The notes below the pieces were generated by a model. It saw only the letters and a program-made list of their open reading frames with translations. It was not told where the DNA came from and did no database searches. A stretch of DNA of 64,000 nt from positions 371,045-435,044 of the forward strand of contig NHNY01000021.1 in assembly GCA_002786065.1 (NCBI GenBank), written 5' to 3'. This DNA comes from Microcyclospora pomicola (lineage: Eukaryota; Ascomycota; Dothideomycetes; Capnodiales). A program made the position numbers and the translations under genes. Below, one piece after another: positions 53,030 through 64,000 of this stretch; the first letter of the stretch is position 1; each line of letters starts with the position of its first letter.

Positions 53030-55687
53030 CATAGTCTGTAGTGTCGCTGCTGTCGAAGCCTATAGATGATCCCGAGCTACACGCTGTTATCTTACACTAC
53101 TTCTATGTCCTTTAGCTTACAGATGCGGAGAGTCTGCGACTGCTTAGCTATAAGGGGATCTAGCTCTCTATAGCCTCGCTACGCAGGTTGCGCGCGAAGC
53201 TAGGTCTTAAGAAGCAGGTACTAGCTAGCTAGTACTAGGAAGATCGAGAGCGTCTAGCAGCGCTGTTAAAGGAAGAGCTTAACAATAGCCGCTACGAGAG
53301 TCTTAGCAGGAGGCAGCTATATCGATATATAAGGCAGCATCACAACGTAGTTAACTAGTACGTAGTCAACTATTGCGCGGTGCTTGTTACAGCCTATCGC
53401 TGTATACTGAAGTCTATAGGGATCGCCTGTACGACGTAGCTGTCTAACTAGATCCTGCTAGACTCGAGCTACGGACTCGTAAAGCAAAGGTCTACTATAG
53501 TACTATAATTGTGCTAGGACTAAACTACGCTTAGTCTATAGACGCGTACTACAAGTTTAAGCACTAGGGGATCTAAATCTACGCAGCAGTTGACGTGTAT
53601 TCACGCCATATTATCTAGCTATATTGTAGCATTACTAGCCGTACAGCAATCTCCGTACTCGCGTAGTACCTTACTACTGTTATAAAGGGAGGATTAATCC
53701 CTATAGAAATCCGGAGCGATTAGGGCGCAGAAACTACTACAGCTAGAGATGCTTACTTCGCGATTAGCAAGGAGCTACGTCGGAGAGCTAGTAGCGAGGA
53801 GCTGCAATTCAGTAACTGCTTTCGCTATAGCACAAGCAAGCAGAACTAGCGTATTAAGACCTTCTAGGGTTAGATAGCACAGGGTAGTCTAAATCGATAG
53901 CGTGACGCTTTCCTGGCTATAAGCGATTACTACGAGTACGACAGAGAGGCGCTTATAGACCGGATTGCGCTTATCTTTGTGTATGTGCCTATTATCCGTG
54001 CCGAAGCAGCTGCTTTTGTTAACCTATAGAACAACTATAAGATCCGTAAGCAGTCAAATCGGAGCTATTATATCCCTAGTGTGCTATATGTTCTTTATTA
54101 CTACCCCTAAGAGTCTAATAGCGAGCAGTACAGCATTGCGGTTAATATAGGCCATCCGAGTCTACTACAACTAAAAACTTAGATTAGCGGTTTTAGTGCG
54201 ACCCCCCTACTAGCTTACTAATCCTCCCTATGTGCCTCTCTGCTAATACATATCGCAGATATCGACGAATACCTACTAATTAAGACCCTGACCTTCTATT
54301 AAATCGTGCTGCGAGACGCGCAATATCCGGAGGTTATTAATAGCAGTAATCTTAACGTTGCTAATAGCCGTCGTCTTCATCAATCCGTGTACCTTACGCT
54401 CCGCGAGGCTCTAACGAGCTACTAGCTTAGCAGTAAGCTACTAGTGCTAGCGGAATCCGATAAGCTATATGCGCCCTAGCGGACACGACTAGGGGAGCTC
54501 TATTAGCGCTCTTATTGCAGCTCACCGCCTTAGTGTCCTTAATGCCGAGTATCGAGGTCTAGGGATATATAGCTATATATTAATAGCATCTACTACCCTT
54601 CGCTAGCTTGCACAACGCGACCCTATCCCTTACGAGCTCGCACAACGCTCTTCTATAGCTCGCAATGCCTTTATAGTCGGATCTATGTCCTTCTAACTAT
54701 CGGATCTATAGCTAGCGTCACCTAACTAATCGATTTTGCCCTCAATATAGTGCTGCTAACAGCGTGCTTAGTCTACTAGCAACGAGTGTGTCTACGCCGC
54801 CCTTATTAGACGATAGAGGTTCGTATACTACGTTTAGCGCTCGCTAACCGACTCTCGCGGAGAACCATCGCTAGCGTAGGTTTATAAGGATGCTCCTACT
54901 AGTCGCAATAGCAGCGTTACTACCGCTCTTATAGCGCGTTATAGCCGCACCTGTTACTAGCCAGTACGTAACAGCGACTCGCGTACTAGCTCCTACAGCT
55001 TATAGTCCTACTGCGACCTTCAACCTCTCTGTCTATATACAGGAAGTCACTATCGTCAAGGTTAGGGGCAAGCTAGACAAGTAGCACTAGGGCACATAGG
55101 TGTTATATAGCTAGTTTAGCACTAGCTATCGAGAGGATCAGCTCGCGCAGTTGCTTTGTAGTGAGGGTCAATCGCTAATTGACTTCTTCCTTAGCCAAAC
55201 TAAGGATGATGTTATTAGCTATCTAAGTGTGTTACTTAACGGCTACCGCAGCTACTACTTCGTTATAGGGTGGAATAATAACACTGCTACACTAATCAAG
55301 ATCACTACCGCGACTACAGAGCGAGCCCTCGACAAGCTAATCCCCTTTCGGAGACCAAGGACTAATGTCTACGACGTCAAGATATCTATTAAGAAGGACG
55401 ACGAGCGAGCTACCGTAGCTGTAGCCTTTGTTAGCCGGAGTCTCGTAGCGAGCGCGTTGCGAGCGCGCGCGAGAGAGCAATATAACCTGCCGAGCCGTCT
55501 AAGCACACAGAATGGCGCGCTAGATAGCATCGAACCCTTAAGCCCCTTAGCTAAGCGAGAGCTAATTCCGCGAGTCAAACCGGAGCTAGAGAAGCTATCT
55601 ATACTAGTAGCTAGCAGCACTACTAGCCGCAGTGCTGCTACTACTATCGACGTTGCTTTAGATAGTAATAGTAACACTTCTAGCTAG
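53030..55687 (+). pseudogene. 3' part of the Clr5/integrase-core gene (DDE-type), RIP-degraded
   Basis: It resumes the gene cut at 15373. First comes a second helix-turn-helix-like region, then the integrase core: SIDAYY with the first Asp at 53541, a strand IYAAVDVYSRHII, and IRSD with the second Asp at 53718. The third acidic position (53856-53858) is now AAG (Lys), which a TpG-to-TpA change of GAG would explain. The frame shifts near 53340-53420 and again before 55151-55687 suggest introns or indels. The last 178 codons are open and end at a TAG that belongs to the adjoining transposon end. The family is widespread in fungi with unknown function. Its rve-like core suggests descent from a transposase or integrase. 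Confidence 0.7.
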
Positions 55688-55701
55688 AGGCCACCACGGG
55701 G
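55685..55701 (+). repeat. Left terminal inverted repeat of the hAT-like element
   Basis: 17 bp, paired with 63927-63943 with one mismatch. Its TAG serves as the stop codon of the truncated integrase-core gene. Confidence 0.8.
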
Positions 55702-56049
55702 AGGGGATTCCCCAACCCGTAGGAAGTGGGTTAGGTTGGGGATTCGCCCTAAACTATAATTGGGGTTCTTCCTACTATTTTGGGGCAACCCAATTTTTGG
55801 GTTGCCCCAAAAATTCCCCATGATTCCTCCTTTAGAATAGACTAAAACCGTTTAGGCACTAAATAGTGTAGATCACTTACATAATCGGCGCTTCGCTGCC
55901 AATCACCTGCCAATCACGTAACTGTCAAGATTTTGGTCTTGTAATCTTTACTAAGGGTCTTTAGAATGCCAATCACACTGCCAATCACACTATTGTAAGA
56001 TAACTGCAAGACTCGGTGTTCACGCTATATACGCTCTACACAATGAAAG
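55702..56049. other. Left subterminal region of the hAT-like element
   Basis: It contains repeated TTGGGG and CCCAA motifs, an inverted repeat around 55776-55819 (ttggggcaaccc / gggttgcccc) and four TGCCAATCAC motifs at 55897, 55908, 55967 and 55979. No gene. Confidence 0.65.
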
Positions 56050-59000
56050 CTAATCTTGGGAGTATCTTGAGCTACGTGGGGAGACGCGGCGCTGGGAACT
56101 TGATGGCGATGTCCTTCTTGTTTGGGTAGTCGAAGGGGTAAGGTGGCTTGAGAGTTCAGCAGCACGACGATCATCCTCGTCGTCGCTGATACAGTCGTGC
56201 GCTAGTATCTGGTTAAGATCTTTGAGTGTTTCAGTATAGTCCTGCTGAACATCATCCTGAGTAAGAGGATCGTCTAATAGCTTTTGCATCTCCTGGTCGA
56301 TATCCTCTGCTGCTGCTATAAGACGATGGCGTGTCATCATAAGCGCAGTAAAGGTTACTGCACTGTACTTGCGGTTGTAACGAGACTGGTGTCGCGCAAT
56401 ACTGAACGTTCTCTCAACACCAACACTAGAAGCAGGAATACAGTGAATGTCCTGTGCCATCTTCGCAATAGTTGGAAACTCGCTAGTAAGCATTCTCCAC
56501 ATCTTCAAGACATCAGTAGTCTGATCTCGCTTATGAAGAGCTATAGATGTTAGTATATAAGTAGATAAGGGATGTAAGTACTAACCAAACTGCTTGTATC
56601 AGTCAAGCTCGTTGTCTGTAGTTGTTTTGGTTGGAGAATAAAGGGAGTCGTGTAAAAAGTCGTCAAGGCTATGTACAGGGGCCGACTCTGTACTAGTAGA
56701 CTGTGGCTGGACAGTAACTGCCTTATGATAATGGGTCCAATACAGACTCTCCAGTTTTGCCCAGTATTGCGTTCGATAGGCTGTTCCTCGCCAAGCTGGT
56801 CCTTTCCAAAAGATATCTTTTATTGCTGGATTAAGTAAAACAGCCATACCATATAGGTCACCAAGCGCGTCAATTGCCTTCGAATAATACTTCCTGAGCT
56901 TGTCTTCAGCACTATTGAGGGCTTGAAGCATATGTCGCTTCCAAGGAATCTTCTTAGGGCGTAGCTTGTTTCGAGCACTCTCAATCATATCGAACAGTCG
57001 ATTGTAGAAGCTGAAGGCCAGGTGTAGAGACGGGCCCTTTGTCTTACCAATAAGGGTAGTACATAAGGCAAATGGTCGCGCTAGGCTAAGAAGATAGTCA
57101 ATTTGTTTCCAGTGTAGTGGAGAGAGCGTAAGCCAGCGAAGCTTAGTAGAAGCGATGTACCGGTCTACTACAGGTCGAAGTTGACGGAAGCGAAGGAGCA
57201 TTGTAGTAGTAGAGTCCCAGCGAGTCTTGACGTCCATCAGCAATCTTAAGGGGACCTTAGATGTAGAGCTAAGCTCTATATTCTTCTGAAGGTTTAAGAA
57301 AGCCTCAACTCTTTGATCGCTAGCGTTCACATAGACAGTGATGTTGCGAACCTACGTAAAGGTTAGATTTGCGAATTACTATGCCAATCACCCTGCCAAT
57401 CACCCTGCTAATCACTAATCTCACTGCAGCTCTCGAACATATGCCAATCACCTGCCAATCACAGTACTGGACTACACCTATAAGACTGATTTGCGAAAGT
57501 GTACTGACCTTATAGAGTAAGAGAGCGATGTCTGACTCAGTTTCTTCGCTATGAAGCTTCTTGTAGCCTTGAAGGGCCTTCGCTTCTTCCCAGACTCTGA
57601 TTGGATCTTCATTGTCTGGTGTGAGCTTTAGTGTTGAAAAAAGGTCCCCAATCGAGAGTTGAAAGACATGGGCAAGACAGGGAACATGCTCGATATTTCC
57701 GAGTTGAGATGGGATGGTTCCATAATCTTCAAGCTCGTCTAGGACGAGCTCGCCAGAAGCAGACGTCAGGGTGATAGAGGGTGTTGGTATTGTAACGTGT
57801 AGCTGACTCTGAGACTCTAGAATAGCCTCTGAACTGAATACTAATTAGCTAAGTCTGAACAAGAACAGTGTTTACTTACATTGAAGCGTGTAGCGTCTTA
57901 TTATTTGACGCGTTGTCAGTTGTAATAGTAACCACTTTGTTTGACAGTTTGAAAGTATCAATAATGTCCTGAACAAGGGCAGCAAGTGAGGAACCAGTAT
58001 GTCGACCTTCGATAAGGGGAAAGCCTAGCAGTTCCTCGTGAAATGACCAATTGTTGTCGATCCAGTAGGCTTTTATAGCTAGAAAAGACTGGTGGAGTGT
58101 CCTGTTGCTCCACGCGTCTAAAGCAAGTGAAACGCGTCTAACATTGTCGAGACTAGCTGCAATAGCTGCTGTAGCTTCATCAGCTGAGCCAATAACCCTA
58201 CGACGGATTGTAGAGGCGGATAAAAACACAGGGGCCTCATAGAAGCAGTGGTAACTGCTCCTGACTGTTGGATGCTCGAAAAAAGAGAGAGGAAGCCCTG
58301 TAGCGACGATCATTTCTACCTGGCACTGATCAAAGTCACTAGGCGCTAACGCGTGCGAGTTGTCGATCTTACGCTTCTTTCGAGTCTGTGACCTTGTTAG
58401 CACATGATAAAAGAGCGTGATTGGCAGTGTGATTGGCACTAGAAGATTAAGCTCTAGAGCTATATATAACGGTGATCTAGGTGTAATAAGGTGTGATTGG
58501 CAGTGATTGGCATCAGACACTTACTGTGTGTAACAGCTTTTGTGTAACATCATCGTGTGAAAGCCCCTTTCGCTCTGCTACTGCTCGACAGGCGCGACTT
58601 TGTATATGATCGCTCATAGAGCTTGTGCCATTGCCCAGACCAGGATGAGAGACTGTTTGATCGCATATTCGACATATAACACGTGGTTCGTAGGTCGTCT
58701 GGGTGATACCTTCCTCGAAGTAGTCCCAGACTGGAGCAGTCTTTTTTGAGCCCCATTTCACTGGGAAGCTCTTATATTGCTTGTGCTTGGTCCTTCCTGC
58801 AGGCTCCCACCAGCCTTGACGCGTCAGATCCTCGAATGCCTGCTTGTAGCGCTCTCGCCAGAGAAAGCAGGTACCCCTAGTTTTGAAGAAAACTGTCTGA
58901 TTAGTTGATCTCGTTGGCGTTGAAAATGTTGTACTAGATTGCTGGGTTACTGAGCGTGTATATGATTGCTGGCTGAATGAATGGTTCCTCGAGACCTGTG

Positions 59001-59136
59001 GGCTAGGACTAGCAGCAATACGCGTCTTCGAGCGTGTCGATTGAGAGGGAGTAGTTTGATCTTGTGAGATAGGTTGCTGAGAAGGACTTTGTAGAAAGCT
59101 TGACATTGTGTAAGACAACATAGCATGTCGAAGCAA
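56050..59136 (-). CDS. hAT transposase with BED finger, one in-frame TGA
   Basis: Five exons: 58525-59136, 57880-58385, 57509-57833, 56586-57351 and 56050-56540. The introns are 139, 46, 157 and 45 nt, every junction is in phase, and the total is 2,700 nt (899 codons plus stop). Residues about 105-183 form a BED zinc finger (C155, C158, H177, C183). The RNase H-like core shows LALDAWS, TTDNASNN and CLAHVFQL. The C-terminal dimerisation region has SVGVERTFS. It should cut and rejoin the terminal inverted repeats. A single TGA at 56599-56601, near the end of exon 4, breaks the frame (ancestral Arg or Trp codon). It is not in RIP context. Introns 1 and 3 carry four TGCCAATCAC-type motifs each. 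Whether readthrough, a missed splice form or a real null explains the TGA is open. Confidence 0.88.
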
Positions 59137-59556
59137 GAAGAGAGAAAAGACTTAGCAGAACTCATGTGAAGAAACAGTTAACATTAGGAAAATTAGAATA
59201 TTCATCAGATTTAGGGTTGAGGTTAAGTGATCGGCAGTAAACCCTAGCGCTTAAGCCTAAAGAAGTAAAGAATATCTCGTTCAGCTTCGGCACTTACTAC
59301 TCTGGTAGCTAGCGACCGTTAAGATAATCAAATAACGTTTTTTAGCGTATTATCTAGGCGCTATAGATGCAACGCGGCTCACGCTTTATACTTACTCTTA
59401 GACCCTTACTACAGCTACACTCTTAATCATAGCCAGGAAGGTCCTGAAGGTATCAACATTTCAGTAGCAGAGCGTGCTATGTACTATACAGCCATTGTTG
59501 CTCCTCCACACATTGTAGCGTCTTTAACGCGTGATTGGCAGGTGATTGGCAGGTTC
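59137..59556. other. Upstream region of the transposase gene
   Basis: 420 bp between the transposase start and the 3' end of the next minus-strand gene. It has two GTGATTGGCA motifs (59531, 59542) just after that gene's stop codon. No other feature seen. Confidence 0.5.
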
Positions 59557-60739
59557 CTAATCCTCCTCACCCTCCTCACCCTCACGCAGAAGACGCAGCT
59601 CCGCCCCAGACAGACTCAGAACCTCCATGAGCGCCGCAGCCCTAGTAGTGTACACGTTTGGCAGCAATGCCGCCATCTCGAACGTTCCCTCGTCAATTGG
59701 GTTTGCGACTAGGTGATATAGCGCCTTAGCTTCAGCGCTAGACTGCATCACTCCAAAAGCATCTGGCTGGGGTGTGAAACCGTTGCCCTCATAGTCGTAA
59801 TAGAATGTCCATAGCCAGCGAAAGCCTGGAATCAACCTCCTTTCACCCCAGATGACAGCAGCTTCATCGTTCCACGTGATGACATTGCGGATGATGGCTC
59901 TCTCAGCGTCTGTGAAAATATGGTGTGGCTGAGGAGTCCTGCCCAGAGTAAACGCCTAGAAGCTTGTTAGTGCCAATCACACTGCCAATCACACTGCCAA
60001 TCACATACCCTAGCGCCATCTTTCCCAAGCAGCGTCTTCCAGCATGCAGCAACAATTCGGACATGCTTCTGGCTGCCTTTGTGTAGATCCAGTCTTTGGA
60101 GCATCTTCAGAACCCCAAACTTCTTCTTAACCTCGTTACAAGCATCGTGCCAGTAAGCATGAACGTAACCCCAGTGAGCTTTAGCTGTCTCTTCACGCGC
60201 CTTCTGCAGACGTCTAGACATAAGAGCAGGCAGGTCATCTTCAGTGTCATCCTCATTTTCCCAGCCACCTTGCAGATCAGCGTCAAGTAGGTCGAAATCA
60301 CGATCGGCAGAGGGTTCCAGCCAGACAGCATCACTATCAGCCATAGTTGCAGCCTTCTCAGCTTCTAGACGTTCCTCAGCTTCGGTAGCGCTAAATAAAG
60401 TTAGCTAGCAATACTAACAGTTAAACTAAGTTTAACTTACCGTTGAGCAATGATCGTAGCTTTCTGAGCTTCCAGAGCAGCCTTCTGGGCAGTAGCATTC
60501 ATTGCTTTGAAGCTTTCAGTCGTCTTCAGCTTGTTGTTGGCGCGCCAGACTGCGGTGTTCGTAGCTCTCAATGCTTTCTCCCTAGCAGCTTTTTCTACAC
60601 TCAGATTGTTGCGACGGATCATTTCGCGTATAGCATTGTAGTTGGTGGACCTAGGGGCGGCCTGCGCTGTACGATCGATCAGAGCACTTGTTCTGGCCTT
60701 CTTACTCGGTCCGGGGCTTGGAGAATGAGAGCGCTTCAT
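59557..60739 (-). CDS. Accessory gene of the hAT-like element, unknown function
   Basis: Three exons: 60441-60739, 60009-60390 and 59557-59955. The introns are 50 nt (60391-60440, GTAAGT...TTTAG) and 53 nt (59956-60008, GTATGT, CACTAAC branch, TTCTAG). Phases agree, giving 359 aa. The ATG at 60739 has A at -3. The protein starts with a basic Ser/Pro segment containing a likely nuclear signal (PSKKAR), then a long Ala/Glu/Lys helix (residues 50-120, coiled-coil-like), an acidic stretch near 145-160, and a folded C-terminal half rich in Trp and aromatic residues ending in a Glu-rich tail. I do not recognise a family. The second intron is largely made of three TGCCAATCAC motifs. It could be a DNA-binding partner of the transposase or a histone chaperone-like protein, but that is a guess from charge and context. 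Confidence 0.78.
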
Positions 60740-61392
60740 GTTTGCAGGGTGAAGTGTGATTGGCAAGTGATTGGCAAGAGATGGGCAGCCTAAGAGCGTG
60801 TTCTGGTGAAAGGTACAGAGTGAAGCGACACTCCAGCAGCCAAGGTCGAAATTGCTCGACTTTTCTCGTTTTTCAGCGTTTGCAGCTTCCAGACGTACGC
60901 AAGGCAGCGATTCATGCGAACAGGGCCGAAGAGTGATTGGCAAGGTGATTGGCAACGAAATGGGGAAGGCGTGATGAGGGATGTAGTGAAGTGAAAATTT
61001 CAGGCGGCAAGTGCGGGGTGGCTGCCACTAGCGCGGCGCTAGCGGCGCGCTAGTGGCGGAACCGTTCCGCTTTCACATGTGAATCCCCTTTCTGATACTT
61101 TCGATCATTACCACGATCTTTCTCACACTATAGCCTAAGAAAGGGTGTAGCGACCATCTGTGTGATTGGCAGCGTGATTGGCAATATTAATAAATAAACA
61201 AAATCAAAAGTAAGCGATTTAAGAACCAGTTTTAAAGCGTGATAATAGGGATATCACTAGCGTAGATCTAGCGTGATTCTCAACATATGTAAGCTTTTAT
61301 TCTTAGATTGCTTCTCCTCTTCCCTCTCCTTCCCTCTCTCTCTGATTTCTGACCTCCTCTACCATTCCTTATCAGCTATTAATCCCTCTACA
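60740..61392. promoter_or_regulatory. Divergent promoter region between the accessory gene and H3-like gene 1
   Basis: 653 bp between divergent start codons. It carries three pairs of GTGATTGGCA (60755/60767, 60933/60945, 61163/61175), a GC-rich 12-bp inverted repeat (61024-61035 / 61046-61057) and a pyrimidine-rich tract (about 61314-61378) just before the H3-like ATG, as is common in well-expressed fungal promoters. Confidence 0.6.
61024..61057. repeat. GC-rich inverted repeat in the divergent promoter
   Basis: Two 12-bp arms, GCCACTAGCGCG and its reverse complement, separated by 10 bp. The loop (gcgctagcgg) repeats the core of the arms. It could form a hairpin or bind a dimeric protein. 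Confidence 0.7.
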
Positions 61393-61921
61393 ATGCCGCC
61401 TCTTACACCTGCATCTACTGCATTGTCTTCTAGCAATGGTATGTAATTTATGCCTTCTTTTAACACACCGATCTTCTAACTAACGAAAAAAATTAGCTAT
61501 CATACGTAAAGGGCGCACGAAACTTGTAGCAAAACGCAGTGTCAAGTTCCCTTTAAAACGACCTCGTATGGGACAGCAGTCTCAGTCACGAAAAAAGCGA
61601 AGACTTAAGCCTGGCACTGCTGCATTACGCGCTATTCGACAGATCCAGAAAACGACCGTTCTATGTATACCGCGCCTTCCCTTTTCGCGTCTTGTACGTG
61701 AGATAATGTCAGATATATCATCAGAGGGTCAGCTTCGCATTCAAGGCTCTGCGTTAGGAGCCTTACAGGAAGCTGCGGAGGCATTTCTTATAACAGAGTT
61801 CGAGATGTCCTTACTCGCGACCCTCCACGCAAAACGCGTCACGATGGCAGTTAAGGACATGCGCCTGATCCGGATGCTCCGACATAGGATGAATGGCGAC
61901 CCATACTACGAGCTAGACTAG
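61393..61921 (+). CDS. Histone H3-like protein 1 (CENP-A-like), transposon-encoded
   Basis: Two exons, 61393-61438 and 61497-61921, with a 58-nt intron (GTATGT, CTAAC, AATTAG), giving 156 aa. The ATG has A at -3. A basic N-terminal tail of about 50 residues without the canonical H3 sequence is followed by a full H3 fold: KPGTAALRAIRQIQK (alpha-N), PRLPFSRLVREI (alpha-1), [13 protein letters not shown] (alpha-2), LHAKRVT and KDMRLIRMLR (alpha-3). Loop 1 (12 residues between REI and the alpha-2 start) is two residues longer than in canonical H3, and QEAAEAFL is typical of centromeric H3. It is expected to pair with H4 in a nucleosome. The C-terminal extension DPYYELD is unusual. It is divergent enough that it is not the host CenH3 by default, but that has to be tested. 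Confidence 0.88.
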
Positions 61922-62784
61922 TGTAAGCTCCTTTTATTCACATGTATATATTACCTAATTGCTAACATTCTTTTCTAGCTTTACTTTGAGATCGTCTCTA
62001 TTACTAGTGCCAATCACTGCCAATCACACCTTCCACATGTACTGTTCCTTGCTATCTACAGAAATTCATTTTCGCGTAACCTAACGACTTTGTGTAGCCC
62101 CTTATGAGCTAAAAATCACTCTTTACTGCCAATCACTGCCAATCACACCTAGTATGTATACGAAATTTTTATACCCGCTATAAGCAAAAGAACTAAATTT
62201 CTCCTTCTAGAAAGTTGTAAAACGATTATTAGTACGTCCTTTCGAGCTCTTGTTGTCGATATAGTGCTCTTAAGCTAACTATCCTCTCCCTAGAGCTTTT
62301 CAGATTTTTCGGTTTATTTTCAAGTTACCCAAAAGCGACAAGTGTCTACAACAGCCTTATTTCGCGCGCTATGCGCTCACACTGCCAGATGTCGCGGGAT
62401 TCAGCGTCATACACTGCCAATCACAAAGCCAATCACTCTCAGCGGTTTTGGAAAAAACATCCCAGGCTTCACTTCAGGCATGTGACGGTTCGCTTACCTG
62501 ACCAATCAGAGGTCGCCACGTGATTACCCCGCCCCAGCCACCCAATTTTTATGACGTCACCGCCTCAACGTTCCACCAGTCATCACCTTCACTTTGACAA
62601 ACCCCTGCACATCCTTTTGACAAGCTGCCCTACATTGCTGCCAATCACTGCCAATCACACCTGCTGCCCCGCTGTCGTTCCTCGCATCGCCAGACACTGC
62701 GAAACCCATCAAAACTCGTCCGCCATCTACATACCTGCCAATCACTTGCCAATCACAATCCTGGGTACCTCACACTCCCACACA
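61922..62784. promoter_or_regulatory. Region between the two H3-like genes
   Basis: 863 bp containing nine exact TGCCAATCAC motifs (62008, 62018, 62127, 62137, 62415, 62639, 62649, 62736, 62747) and one variant at 62427. A separate CCAAT box and a CACGTG box lie near 62500-62522. The last motif pair ends about 28 bp before the ATG of H3-like gene 2. No RNA gene or additional ORF supported. Confidence 0.6.
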
Positions 62785-63463
62785 ATGGCCGACGCCAATC
62801 CACCACCCGCGACCACCCAGCAAGACGGCGAGACCCCTTCGACGCGCATCCGGGTCGACGCATCACCCATCAAGCGTACTGCAGTCAGGAGACAGACAGG
62901 CTTCAAATCTACAGGCGGAAAGGGTCCAAGAAAGACTCTCGCTCCAAAAAAGTCTAAGACAGTCCGTAAGAGGCTCACACAAGGTCGTGACTGGGTGCCT
63001 TTCAACAAGATCCCTGGAAAGTACAGGAAGAACAAGCATGGACAGAAGAAAGCTATCAGGCCAGAGCGTGAGTAATAGTGATTGGCATAGTGATTGGCAC
63101 TTACTAACTTGTGTTTAGTCTCTCAAATCAAAGAGATTCGCCACTTTCAGAAGAGTGTCTCACTTCTCATCCCGAGAACGCCTTTTGCTCGTCTCGTCCG
63201 TGAGATTGGCCTGGGTTACAAGTTCGATCTCAGGTTCCAGGCTAGCGCGCTTGAGTGTCTTCAGGAGGCTGCAGAGGCGTTCTTGGTTCGAGTCTTCGAG
63301 AGTAAGTCGTCTGTTTAGCTTCTAGTTCTTTTACTTAGCTAATCCCCTGTTTCTAGTGACGAACCTGCTTGCTATTCACTCGAAGCGTGTCACTATCCAG
63401 CAGAAAGACATGCAGCTACTTAAGCTTCTTATGGAGAGCCCTGTAAGGATGGACGGCAATTGA
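62785..63463 (+). CDS. Histone H3-like protein 2 with H3-type tail, transposon-encoded
   Basis: Three exons: 62785-63067, 63119-63301 and 63357-63463. The introns are 51 and 55 nt, phases agree, and the product is 190 aa. The ATG has A at -3 and G at +4. After a 30-residue leader the sequence [19 protein letters not shown] (residues 35-53) mirrors the canonical H3 tail around Lys9, Ser10, Lys14 and Lys18, with Arg8 replaced by Phe. A 45-residue basic linker follows, then the H3 fold: [53 protein letters not shown]. Loop 1 has canonical H3 length. The usual RPGT motif before alpha-N is missing. Intron 1 contains two GTGATTGGCA motifs. It would join nucleosomes or compete with host H3 modifiers, by inference. 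Confidence 0.88.
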
Positions 63464-63926
63464 GGCTAGACTAGGCTAGGCTGTTTGCTTAGTTAGGCTC
63501 CTAGTAGCAAGGTTGGCTACTAAACAACAATGATACCCATATAGTAGCGTAGATAGCTACTAAAAACCGATGATACCCACTATATCGTAATGCCTTGTGT
63601 CTTATAAACTATCTCCTACACGTGATATAAGCAGCACTGTGATTGGCACTGTGATTGGCACTGTGATTGGCATTCGAAATAGCGTTAGTATAAACGTTTC
63701 ATACTAGTATGTAAGATTAGCGTCTAACCTTCCTTTTAGAGCTAGCGTAGCTTCTAACGCTCTAACGGTCATTCCCCAATTTCTATTAGGGTAACTTCCC
63801 CAATTAAACCCAAATTCAGGACCGGGGACCCGAATAACATGGGTCCCCGCACAATATAGAGGTTAAATAGAAGAACCCAAACAATTGGGTAAGCCCCAAA
63901 TTTTCCTCCCCCTCCGCCCCAACCCG
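63464..63926. other. Right subterminal region of the hAT-like element
   Basis: It holds three GTGATTGGCA motifs (63639, 63651, 63663), a short tandem repeat (about 63500-63600, tagctactaaa...gatacccat units) and, toward the end, CCCCAA/CCCAA-rich sequence and an inverted repeat ggggaccc...gggtcccc (63814-63848). No gene. Confidence 0.65.
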
Positions 63927-63943
63927 CCCCATGGTGGCCTCTA
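63927..63943 (-). repeat. Right terminal inverted repeat of the hAT-like element
   Basis: Reads TAGAGGCCACCATGGGG on the minus strand, paired with 55685-55701 (one mismatch). Confidence 0.8.
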
Positions 63944-64000
63944 GGGCCGGTCGTCTTAGGAGTCGTTACCTCCTTCTTGTCGTCGTCTCTTAAGTAGCGA
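63944..64000. other. Right flank of the hAT-like element
   Basis: 57 bp outside the right inverted repeat. An open frame reads through most of it on the plus strand before a TAG, but it is too short to identify, and I cannot show it continues the integrase-core gene. Confidence 0.3.

Follow-up and report, generated by a model that had tools for sequence, protein, structure and literature searches.

Two divergent histone H3-like genes inside a mobile hAT-type element of Microcyclospora pomicola: candidate anti-silencing histones

A stretch of 64,000 nucleotides from Microcyclospora pomicola (Ascomycota, Dothideomycetes, Capnodiales; assembly GCA_002786065.1, contig NHNY01000021.1, forward-strand positions 371,045 to 435,044; referred to as the window, with position 1 at its first letter) contains an 8,259-bp hAT-type transposable element (window 55685-63943), which encloses two histone H3-like genes, H3a (61393..61921) and H3b (62785..63463), beside its transposase gene. 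Terminal inverted repeats (TIRs), paired 8-bp target duplications and an uninterrupted relative of one of its sites identify the element as a mobile insertion of the hAT type that contains both H3 genes; it is present at 10 or more insertion sites of the assembly. As far as anatomy can tell, and by anatomy rather than sequence homology, it belongs with the H3-carrying hAT elements of other fungi, to which it adds a two-H3 member with both H3 genes readable. H3a and H3b are probably anti-silencing variant histones: the complete proposal, i.e. long-kept element genes that act against silencing, has about an even chance of being correct, while the anatomy taken by itself stands on far firmer ground.

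The element was delimited by its matching inverted ends and by its insertion junctions: junction comparison placed the outer ends at the left TIR TAGAGGCCACCACGGGG (55685..55701, plus strand) and the right TIR (63927..63943, minus strand), and the TIR consensus TAGAGGCCACCA(C/T)GGGG is found in opposite orientation at both ends (55685 and 63943). In the 23.37-Mb assembly (58 contigs), 11 right halves and 7 left ends of the element were detected; because the 57 bases following the element in the window (63944..64000, beginning with the target duplication GGGCCGGT) are those of the insertion site on contig C3, the number of distinct right junctions is 10 and not 11. Comparison of the 8 bases flanking each of the seven left ends with the 8 bases that flank the right ends gave every left junction found a right partner (six exact: C14/C2, C47/C3, C10/C30, C22/C42, C36/C46 and C6/C47; one with a single mismatch: C37/C12, a RIP-type difference, i.e. 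of the kind left by repeat-induced point mutation). The target duplication of the C14 insertion, CTTCTAGC, is located at window positions 55677..55684. No left partner was found in the assembly for the right ends on C4, C7 and C56 (3 of the 10 distinct right junctions). The search for uninterrupted sites covered one of three joined sites: the C22 and C42 flanks, put together around a single duplication copy, correspond to uninterrupted DNA on C6 and C1 (599 of 600 bases, 90% identity). The transposase gene (56050..59121, minus strand; five predicted exons: 59121-58525, 58385-57880, 57833-57509, 57351-56586, 56540-56050) encodes the Dimer_Tnp_hAT domain (PF05699, E 1.1e-13, with X at its stop) and a zf-BED domain (E 8e-5); the C-terminal dimerisation domain, the short TIRs and the 8-bp target duplications, three hallmarks of hAT elements, are present.

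Both H3-like genes are located on the plus strand (H3a: exons 61393-61438 and 61497-61921, 156 amino acids; H3b: exons 62785-63067, 63119-63301 and 63357-63463, 190 amino acids), with the one intron of H3a and the two of H3b predicted from splice sites alone. The proteins score far above the cut-off of the Pfam family Histone (PF00125; E 6.8e-26 for H3a, 2.2e-30 for H3b), their top solved-structure matches are H3 chains, and each of the 11 assembled right halves has both genes free of stops. The initial annotation, made from the letters of the window, was thus borne out in its description of two spliced H3-fold genes (to the base at the H3a start, 61393, and the H3b stop, 63463), in their position within hAT TIRs next to a transposase, and in its view that neither is a recent copy of the host H3: identity to Schizosaccharomyces pombe H3 in one alignment is 46% for H3a and 52% for H3b, and the two genes are mutually saturated at synonymous sites. 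The conserved ARTKQTARKSTGGK tail of canonical H3 and H3.3 is absent from H3a and only partly retained in H3b. H3b carries about 18 residues (by our count) beyond canonical H3 between the tail and the alpha-N helix, and the region around its lysine 9 (K9) reads GFKS versus ARKS in H3; in H3a loop 1 is two residues longer and the K9 region is not recognisable. A weak match of H3b to the NF-Y-type family PF00808 (21.8 versus a cut-off of 21.4 bits) was ascribed to the shared histone fold. The AlphaFold model of H3a exon 2 (140 residues, 20-row alignment) displayed four helices in H3 order (predicted local distance difference test, pLDDT, 65; predicted template modelling score, pTM, 0.33); its Foldseek comparison retrieved nucleosome H3 chains at TM-scores of 0.32-0.35 by query and adds little.

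Over 96 codons of the fold, the proportion of synonymous differences between H3a and H3b (pS 0.876) is saturated, that of nonsynonymous differences (pN) being 0.361; saturated synonymous change alongside a half-conserved protein, as calculated from the predicted reading frames, is a new feature of such genes. Invariance was defined by 18 sequences (7 H3, 10 CenH3 and the host CenH3): H3a is conserved at 35 of the 44 invariant positions versus 16 of the 48 others (p 9e-6). Six residues, R69, R72, R83, H113, R116 and D123, are unchanged in both proteins. In contrast to these, the invariant D106 is replaced by methionine in H3a as well as in H3b, and the invariant A127 and R129 are altered in both; R63 is likewise substituted by proline in both, a residue that is itself variable among the 18 sequences. 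The parallel change of three residues that all 18 H3/CenH3 sequences keep is, as read from the alignment of the predicted proteins, also new. Methionine at position 106 recurs in the database proteins P0150, P0156 and P0222, and P0149 has alanine there; all four are divergent H3-like proteins that could be further transposon-borne H3s.

Homologue searches were run against 5.8 billion proteins and evaluated for the best 120 of 1155 matches (H3b) and the best 120 of 6370 matches (H3a). No close orthologue of H3b was present among its best 120: the top three (P0001-P0003) contain two H3 units per chain, and single-unit matches have about 50% identity, those inspected being canonical H3 or H3 gene models. 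The nearest inspected relatives of H3a are P0149 (65% identity over 62% of the query) and P0150 (54% over 82%), the inspected set excluding the highest-ranking matches, P0121-P0146. None of the published element proteins was recognised among the best 120 matches per protein search, below which they may be placed. In a tree of 39 rows (H3a, H3b, the host CenH3 and 36 proteins selected from 238 listed), H3a grouped with the metagenomic P0149 and P0150 (97/87, starred), and next to this group stood Pseudogymnoascus VE00_05105 (P0222; 86/85, unstarred); the host CenH3 grouped with Elasticomyces (87/84, unstarred), which would suggest a Dothideomycete. P0149, P0150 and P0222 hence resemble H3a in their grouping, and P0150 and P0222 in the shared methionine as well, but they are known as proteins alone, and P0150 is named a centromeric H3-like protein by its source. 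In approximately unbiased (AU) tests, the union of H3a and H3b with P0149 and P0150 was not rejected (p 0.309), and the placement of H3a with the host CenH3 and its neighbour, tested for H3a only, was rejected (p 0.026). Like H3a, fungal CenH3/CENP-A diverges from H3 and has an extended loop 1; however, the host possesses its own CenH3, a single separate gene on contig C34, and neither H3a nor H3b is this gene. In the tree, H3b was placed with P0099 near canonical H3 on a long branch (93/82, unstarred).

Searches of the assembly gave no match to a canonical H3 or H4 gene but did find a divergent H4-like gene (C55:472028-472496). As canonical H4 is missing as well as H3, an assembly gap or masking is the likely cause. 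CenH3, H2B and H2A.Z were, by our own reading, matched.

Contrary to the initial annotation, to which no recognised group of histone-bearing hAT elements was known, such elements were published in 2013 and 2019. Manning et al. (2013, PMC3538342) described a hAT element of Pyrenophora tritici-repentis with TIRs, transposase, a central open reading frame (ORF) and an H3-like gene, H3L, in 10 long and 16 short, nearly identical copies; H3L is neither H3 nor CenH3, has insertions in its amino-terminal tail, is present among expressed sequence tags (ESTs), and "may have undergone drift". Dhillon et al. (2019, PMC6710886) reported hAT elements of about 9.5 kb with one or two H3-like sequences from Pseudocercospora fijiensis and, from another five species, related cases; in the two-H3 elements, the second H3-like sequence has a 16-residue insertion. 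Among titles and the beginnings of abstracts, the literature search retrieved no further paper on H3-carrying transposons. The present element resembles that of Pyrenophora in being a hAT with an H3-like gene between its TIRs that is amplified along with it, and in having an extra ORF beside the transposase (here the central ORF of 359 codons, matched by position only), but the Pyrenophora element is 5.6 kb in length (short form 2.3 kb) and contains one H3-like gene, and a motif array is unmentioned in the available text. With the elements of Pseudocercospora, Cercospora and Sphaerulina it shares the hAT type, 8-bp target duplications, one or two H3-like genes and a RIP context. In contrast, the Pseudocercospora element is about 9.5 kb long, occurs in hundreds of copies in P. 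fijiensis and has extra H3-like copies inactivated by RIP; introns are reported absent and the dimerisation domain was not found, and the authors could identify neither further domains nor repeats, direct or inverted, in the element, with a motif array again unmentioned in the available text.

Such an array is a new feature of the present element: the 10-bp motif GTGATTGGCA/TGCCAATCAC occurs in 37 exact copies between 55897 and 63672, arranged in 18 clusters, of which 15 are pairs and 2 are triples, the last combining a single exact copy with a one-mismatch neighbour; the spacing is 10-12 bp and the orientation is uniform within each cluster. All 37 window copies of GTGATTGGCA are located inside the element, in introns, between genes and, in opposite orientation, near both ends; none of the 18 clusters falls into the 4,809 predicted coding bases (p 1.5e-7). 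The exact tandem form had 100 matches in the genome, all on the 16 element-bearing contigs (reversed control: 0), and is unmatched elsewhere in the assembly. RIP-changed sites are about equally frequent in motif copies (24 of 75) and other element DNA (207 of 676). The distribution suggests a putative binding array for an element protein. TGATTGG is a CCAAT box, but since the tandem form is specific to the element, a host protein of the CCAAT-binding type is regarded as no more than a lead for what binds the motif; a literature search on such a factor found no papers.

The element and its surroundings differ in their imprint of RIP. Between the window copy and the copy on C37, 243 of 260 differences are C to T or G to A, and in the C37 copy CpA is the context of 116 of 121 C-to-T changes and TpG that of 115 of 122 G-to-A changes. 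The composite RIP index is above zero in all 17 adjoining flank stretches (0.08 to 1.90; 10 right, 7 left), whereas the index of the element itself is not positive; the loci around host histone-fold genes have a negative index in 4 of 5 cases (the fifth: 0.06).

The selective retention of the H3 genes over a long time, moderately supported by the conservation of H3a and the open frames of both genes, leads to the following scheme. The products of H3a and H3b might take the place of host H3 in nucleosomes at the element or in its vicinity, and the element DNA could be marked by the binding of the transposase BED finger or of the central protein to the motif array. ARKS is the recognition context for K9 methylation and HP1; because this context is altered in H3b (GFKS) and unrecognisable in H3a, silencing by H3K9 methylation would be weaker on such nucleosomes, and the element would remain expressed and mobile from RIP-mutated, presumably heterochromatic DNA. 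Expression of such genes has a published precedent in the Pyrenophora H3L ESTs (PMC3538342). If the genes were kept by selection, a transposon would encode part of the very nucleosome that silences transposons, and the escape of mobile DNA from heterochromatin would become directly testable with two small proteins; an element with two readable H3 genes and its own motif could reveal whether elements of this kind make chromatin of their own.

Published work interprets H3 in hAT elements as repeated accidental capture. Passive transduplication, according to which the H3 genes were captured by chance and are functionless and drifting, is close to the published readings for Pyrenophora and Pseudocercospora (PMC3538342, PMC6710886) and is in agreement with the distance of both proteins from H3 and the lack of significant excess conservation in H3b. 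Drifting cargo would, however, hardly be expected to keep both frames open with plausible introns despite synonymous saturation, nor to retain invariant positions far more than others, as H3a does. Moreover, H3-like genes recur in hAT elements of different orders, and a two-H3 set with one insertion-bearing member is found in Pseudocercospora (16 residues, location unstated in the available text) as well as here (about 18). Two unspliced-looking gene models (P0026, P0030) put a fungal H3 intron, by our own reading, within one codon of H3b intron 1, which disfavours a retrocopy origin of H3b. Long-kept element genes are in consequence the more likely explanation, with passive cargo a possible second choice.

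A broader form of the anti-silencing proposal would regard the H3-like genes as core genes of an old fungal hAT lineage that includes the Pyrenophora and Pseudocercospora elements and that builds its own nucleosomes, resistant to H3K9 methylation, by means of two H3s, a 10-bp address motif and a motif-binding protein; we consider this extension doubtful. A role in transposition itself, in which the H3-like proteins compact the element or its excised form near the motifs or steer insertion to heterochromatin, is unlikely: the element-specific motif clusters with helical spacing and opposed sub-terminal members, as well as the positive RIP index of 17 of 17 adjoining flanks, would fit, but the motifs are distributed throughout the element and not just near its ends, insertions in RIP-affected DNA may equally reflect selection against genic insertions, and we know of no hAT that needs its own histone. 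No better placed is a genome-wide poisoning of chromatin, in which the proteins titrate host H4 or Asf1, or act as dominant negatives, and thereby loosen silencing everywhere. The multiple element copies and the changes of A127 and R129 in both proteins (residues close to the Asf1 and H3-H3' interface) would be in line with it, whereas the retained H113, R116 and D123 are expected of an H3 that forms nucleosomes.

The assembly calls for separate consideration. Contig breaks recur at two positions of the element (window 56534 and 61181), hence the element is collapsed in the assembly, and sequence away from unique flanks is probably a consensus. The C12 half is clean apart from its final 14 bases, where three RIP-type changes occur, though its partner C37 is about 5% RIP-diverged, and the right halves vary at 4 of 2,763 positions, all outside the H3 genes. 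The element middle is assembled in the window only, plus on C37 up to about 61270. A link of the element to telomeres, considered from matches at the same offset in several contigs, was dropped because the contigs break inside the collapsed element. That a misjoin alone has put the H3 genes beside a hAT is hardly credible: the window copy is indeed an assembly chimera (its left target duplication has its partner on C2, its right flank is that of C3), many contigs end at the same two element positions, and only the window runs from the transposase into the H3 genes (C37 passes the break at 61181 but stops short of H3a), but each of the 11 right halves has both H3 genes within the same terminus, beyond which 10 different flanks occur, and the pairing of target duplications at seven sites (7 of 7 left ends found) shows that both halves belong together, tying transposase end and H3 end to the same insertions.

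Several observations weigh against long-kept anti-silencing genes, the preferred explanation. The evidence presented here consists of DNA sequence alone. H3b is conserved at 29 of the 44 invariant positions versus 24 of the 48 others, which is not significant (p 0.14), and an AU test did not reject the union of H3a and H3b (p 0.137), so that their common origin is neither supported nor rejected. The C37 copy is heavily RIP-mutated; the H3s thus do not protect every copy. In this assembly, with its single assembled middle part, the reading frame of the transposase contains a single in-frame TGA near 56600, which is absent from the C37 transposase, itself with 35 other stops due to RIP. As the sequence is probably an assembly consensus, the near-identity of the copies, which is partly of that origin, is unfit for dating the expansion; the insertion pattern, lacking a genome background, is read neither as targeting nor as its absence. 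Finally, Dhillon et al. (PMC6710886) inferred for Pseudocercospora the capture of an intron-less transcript or a retrocopy, regarded the Pyrenophora case as independent, reported no nucleotide similarity of its element to the Pseudocercospora-type elements, and found the Pyrenophora H3-like proteins closest to the original H3s.

Between the transposase and H3a, the central gene (59557..60739, minus strand; three predicted exons: 60739-60441, 60390-60009, 59955-59557) encodes a protein of 359 amino acids without a significant Pfam match; one search, with 7999 candidates scored, gave no homologue at E up to 10, and the viral contigs searched contained no confirmed relative of this protein or of H3b. 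An insertion of about 7.2 kb divides the C37 copy of the element (C37:93543-106168) into two matches that overlap by 5 bases (window 57572-57576), the pattern expected from a retrotransposon-like 5-bp duplication. In the window, the element is preceded by about 40 kb (16001-55684) of high RIP index (0.68 to 1.56 per 4-kb tile), next to which a normal region with 55% guanine plus cytosine extends over about 1-14 kb; positions 1-2852 therein contain tandem repeats of 141 to 273 bp with periods all divisible by 3, perhaps a repeated coding sequence.
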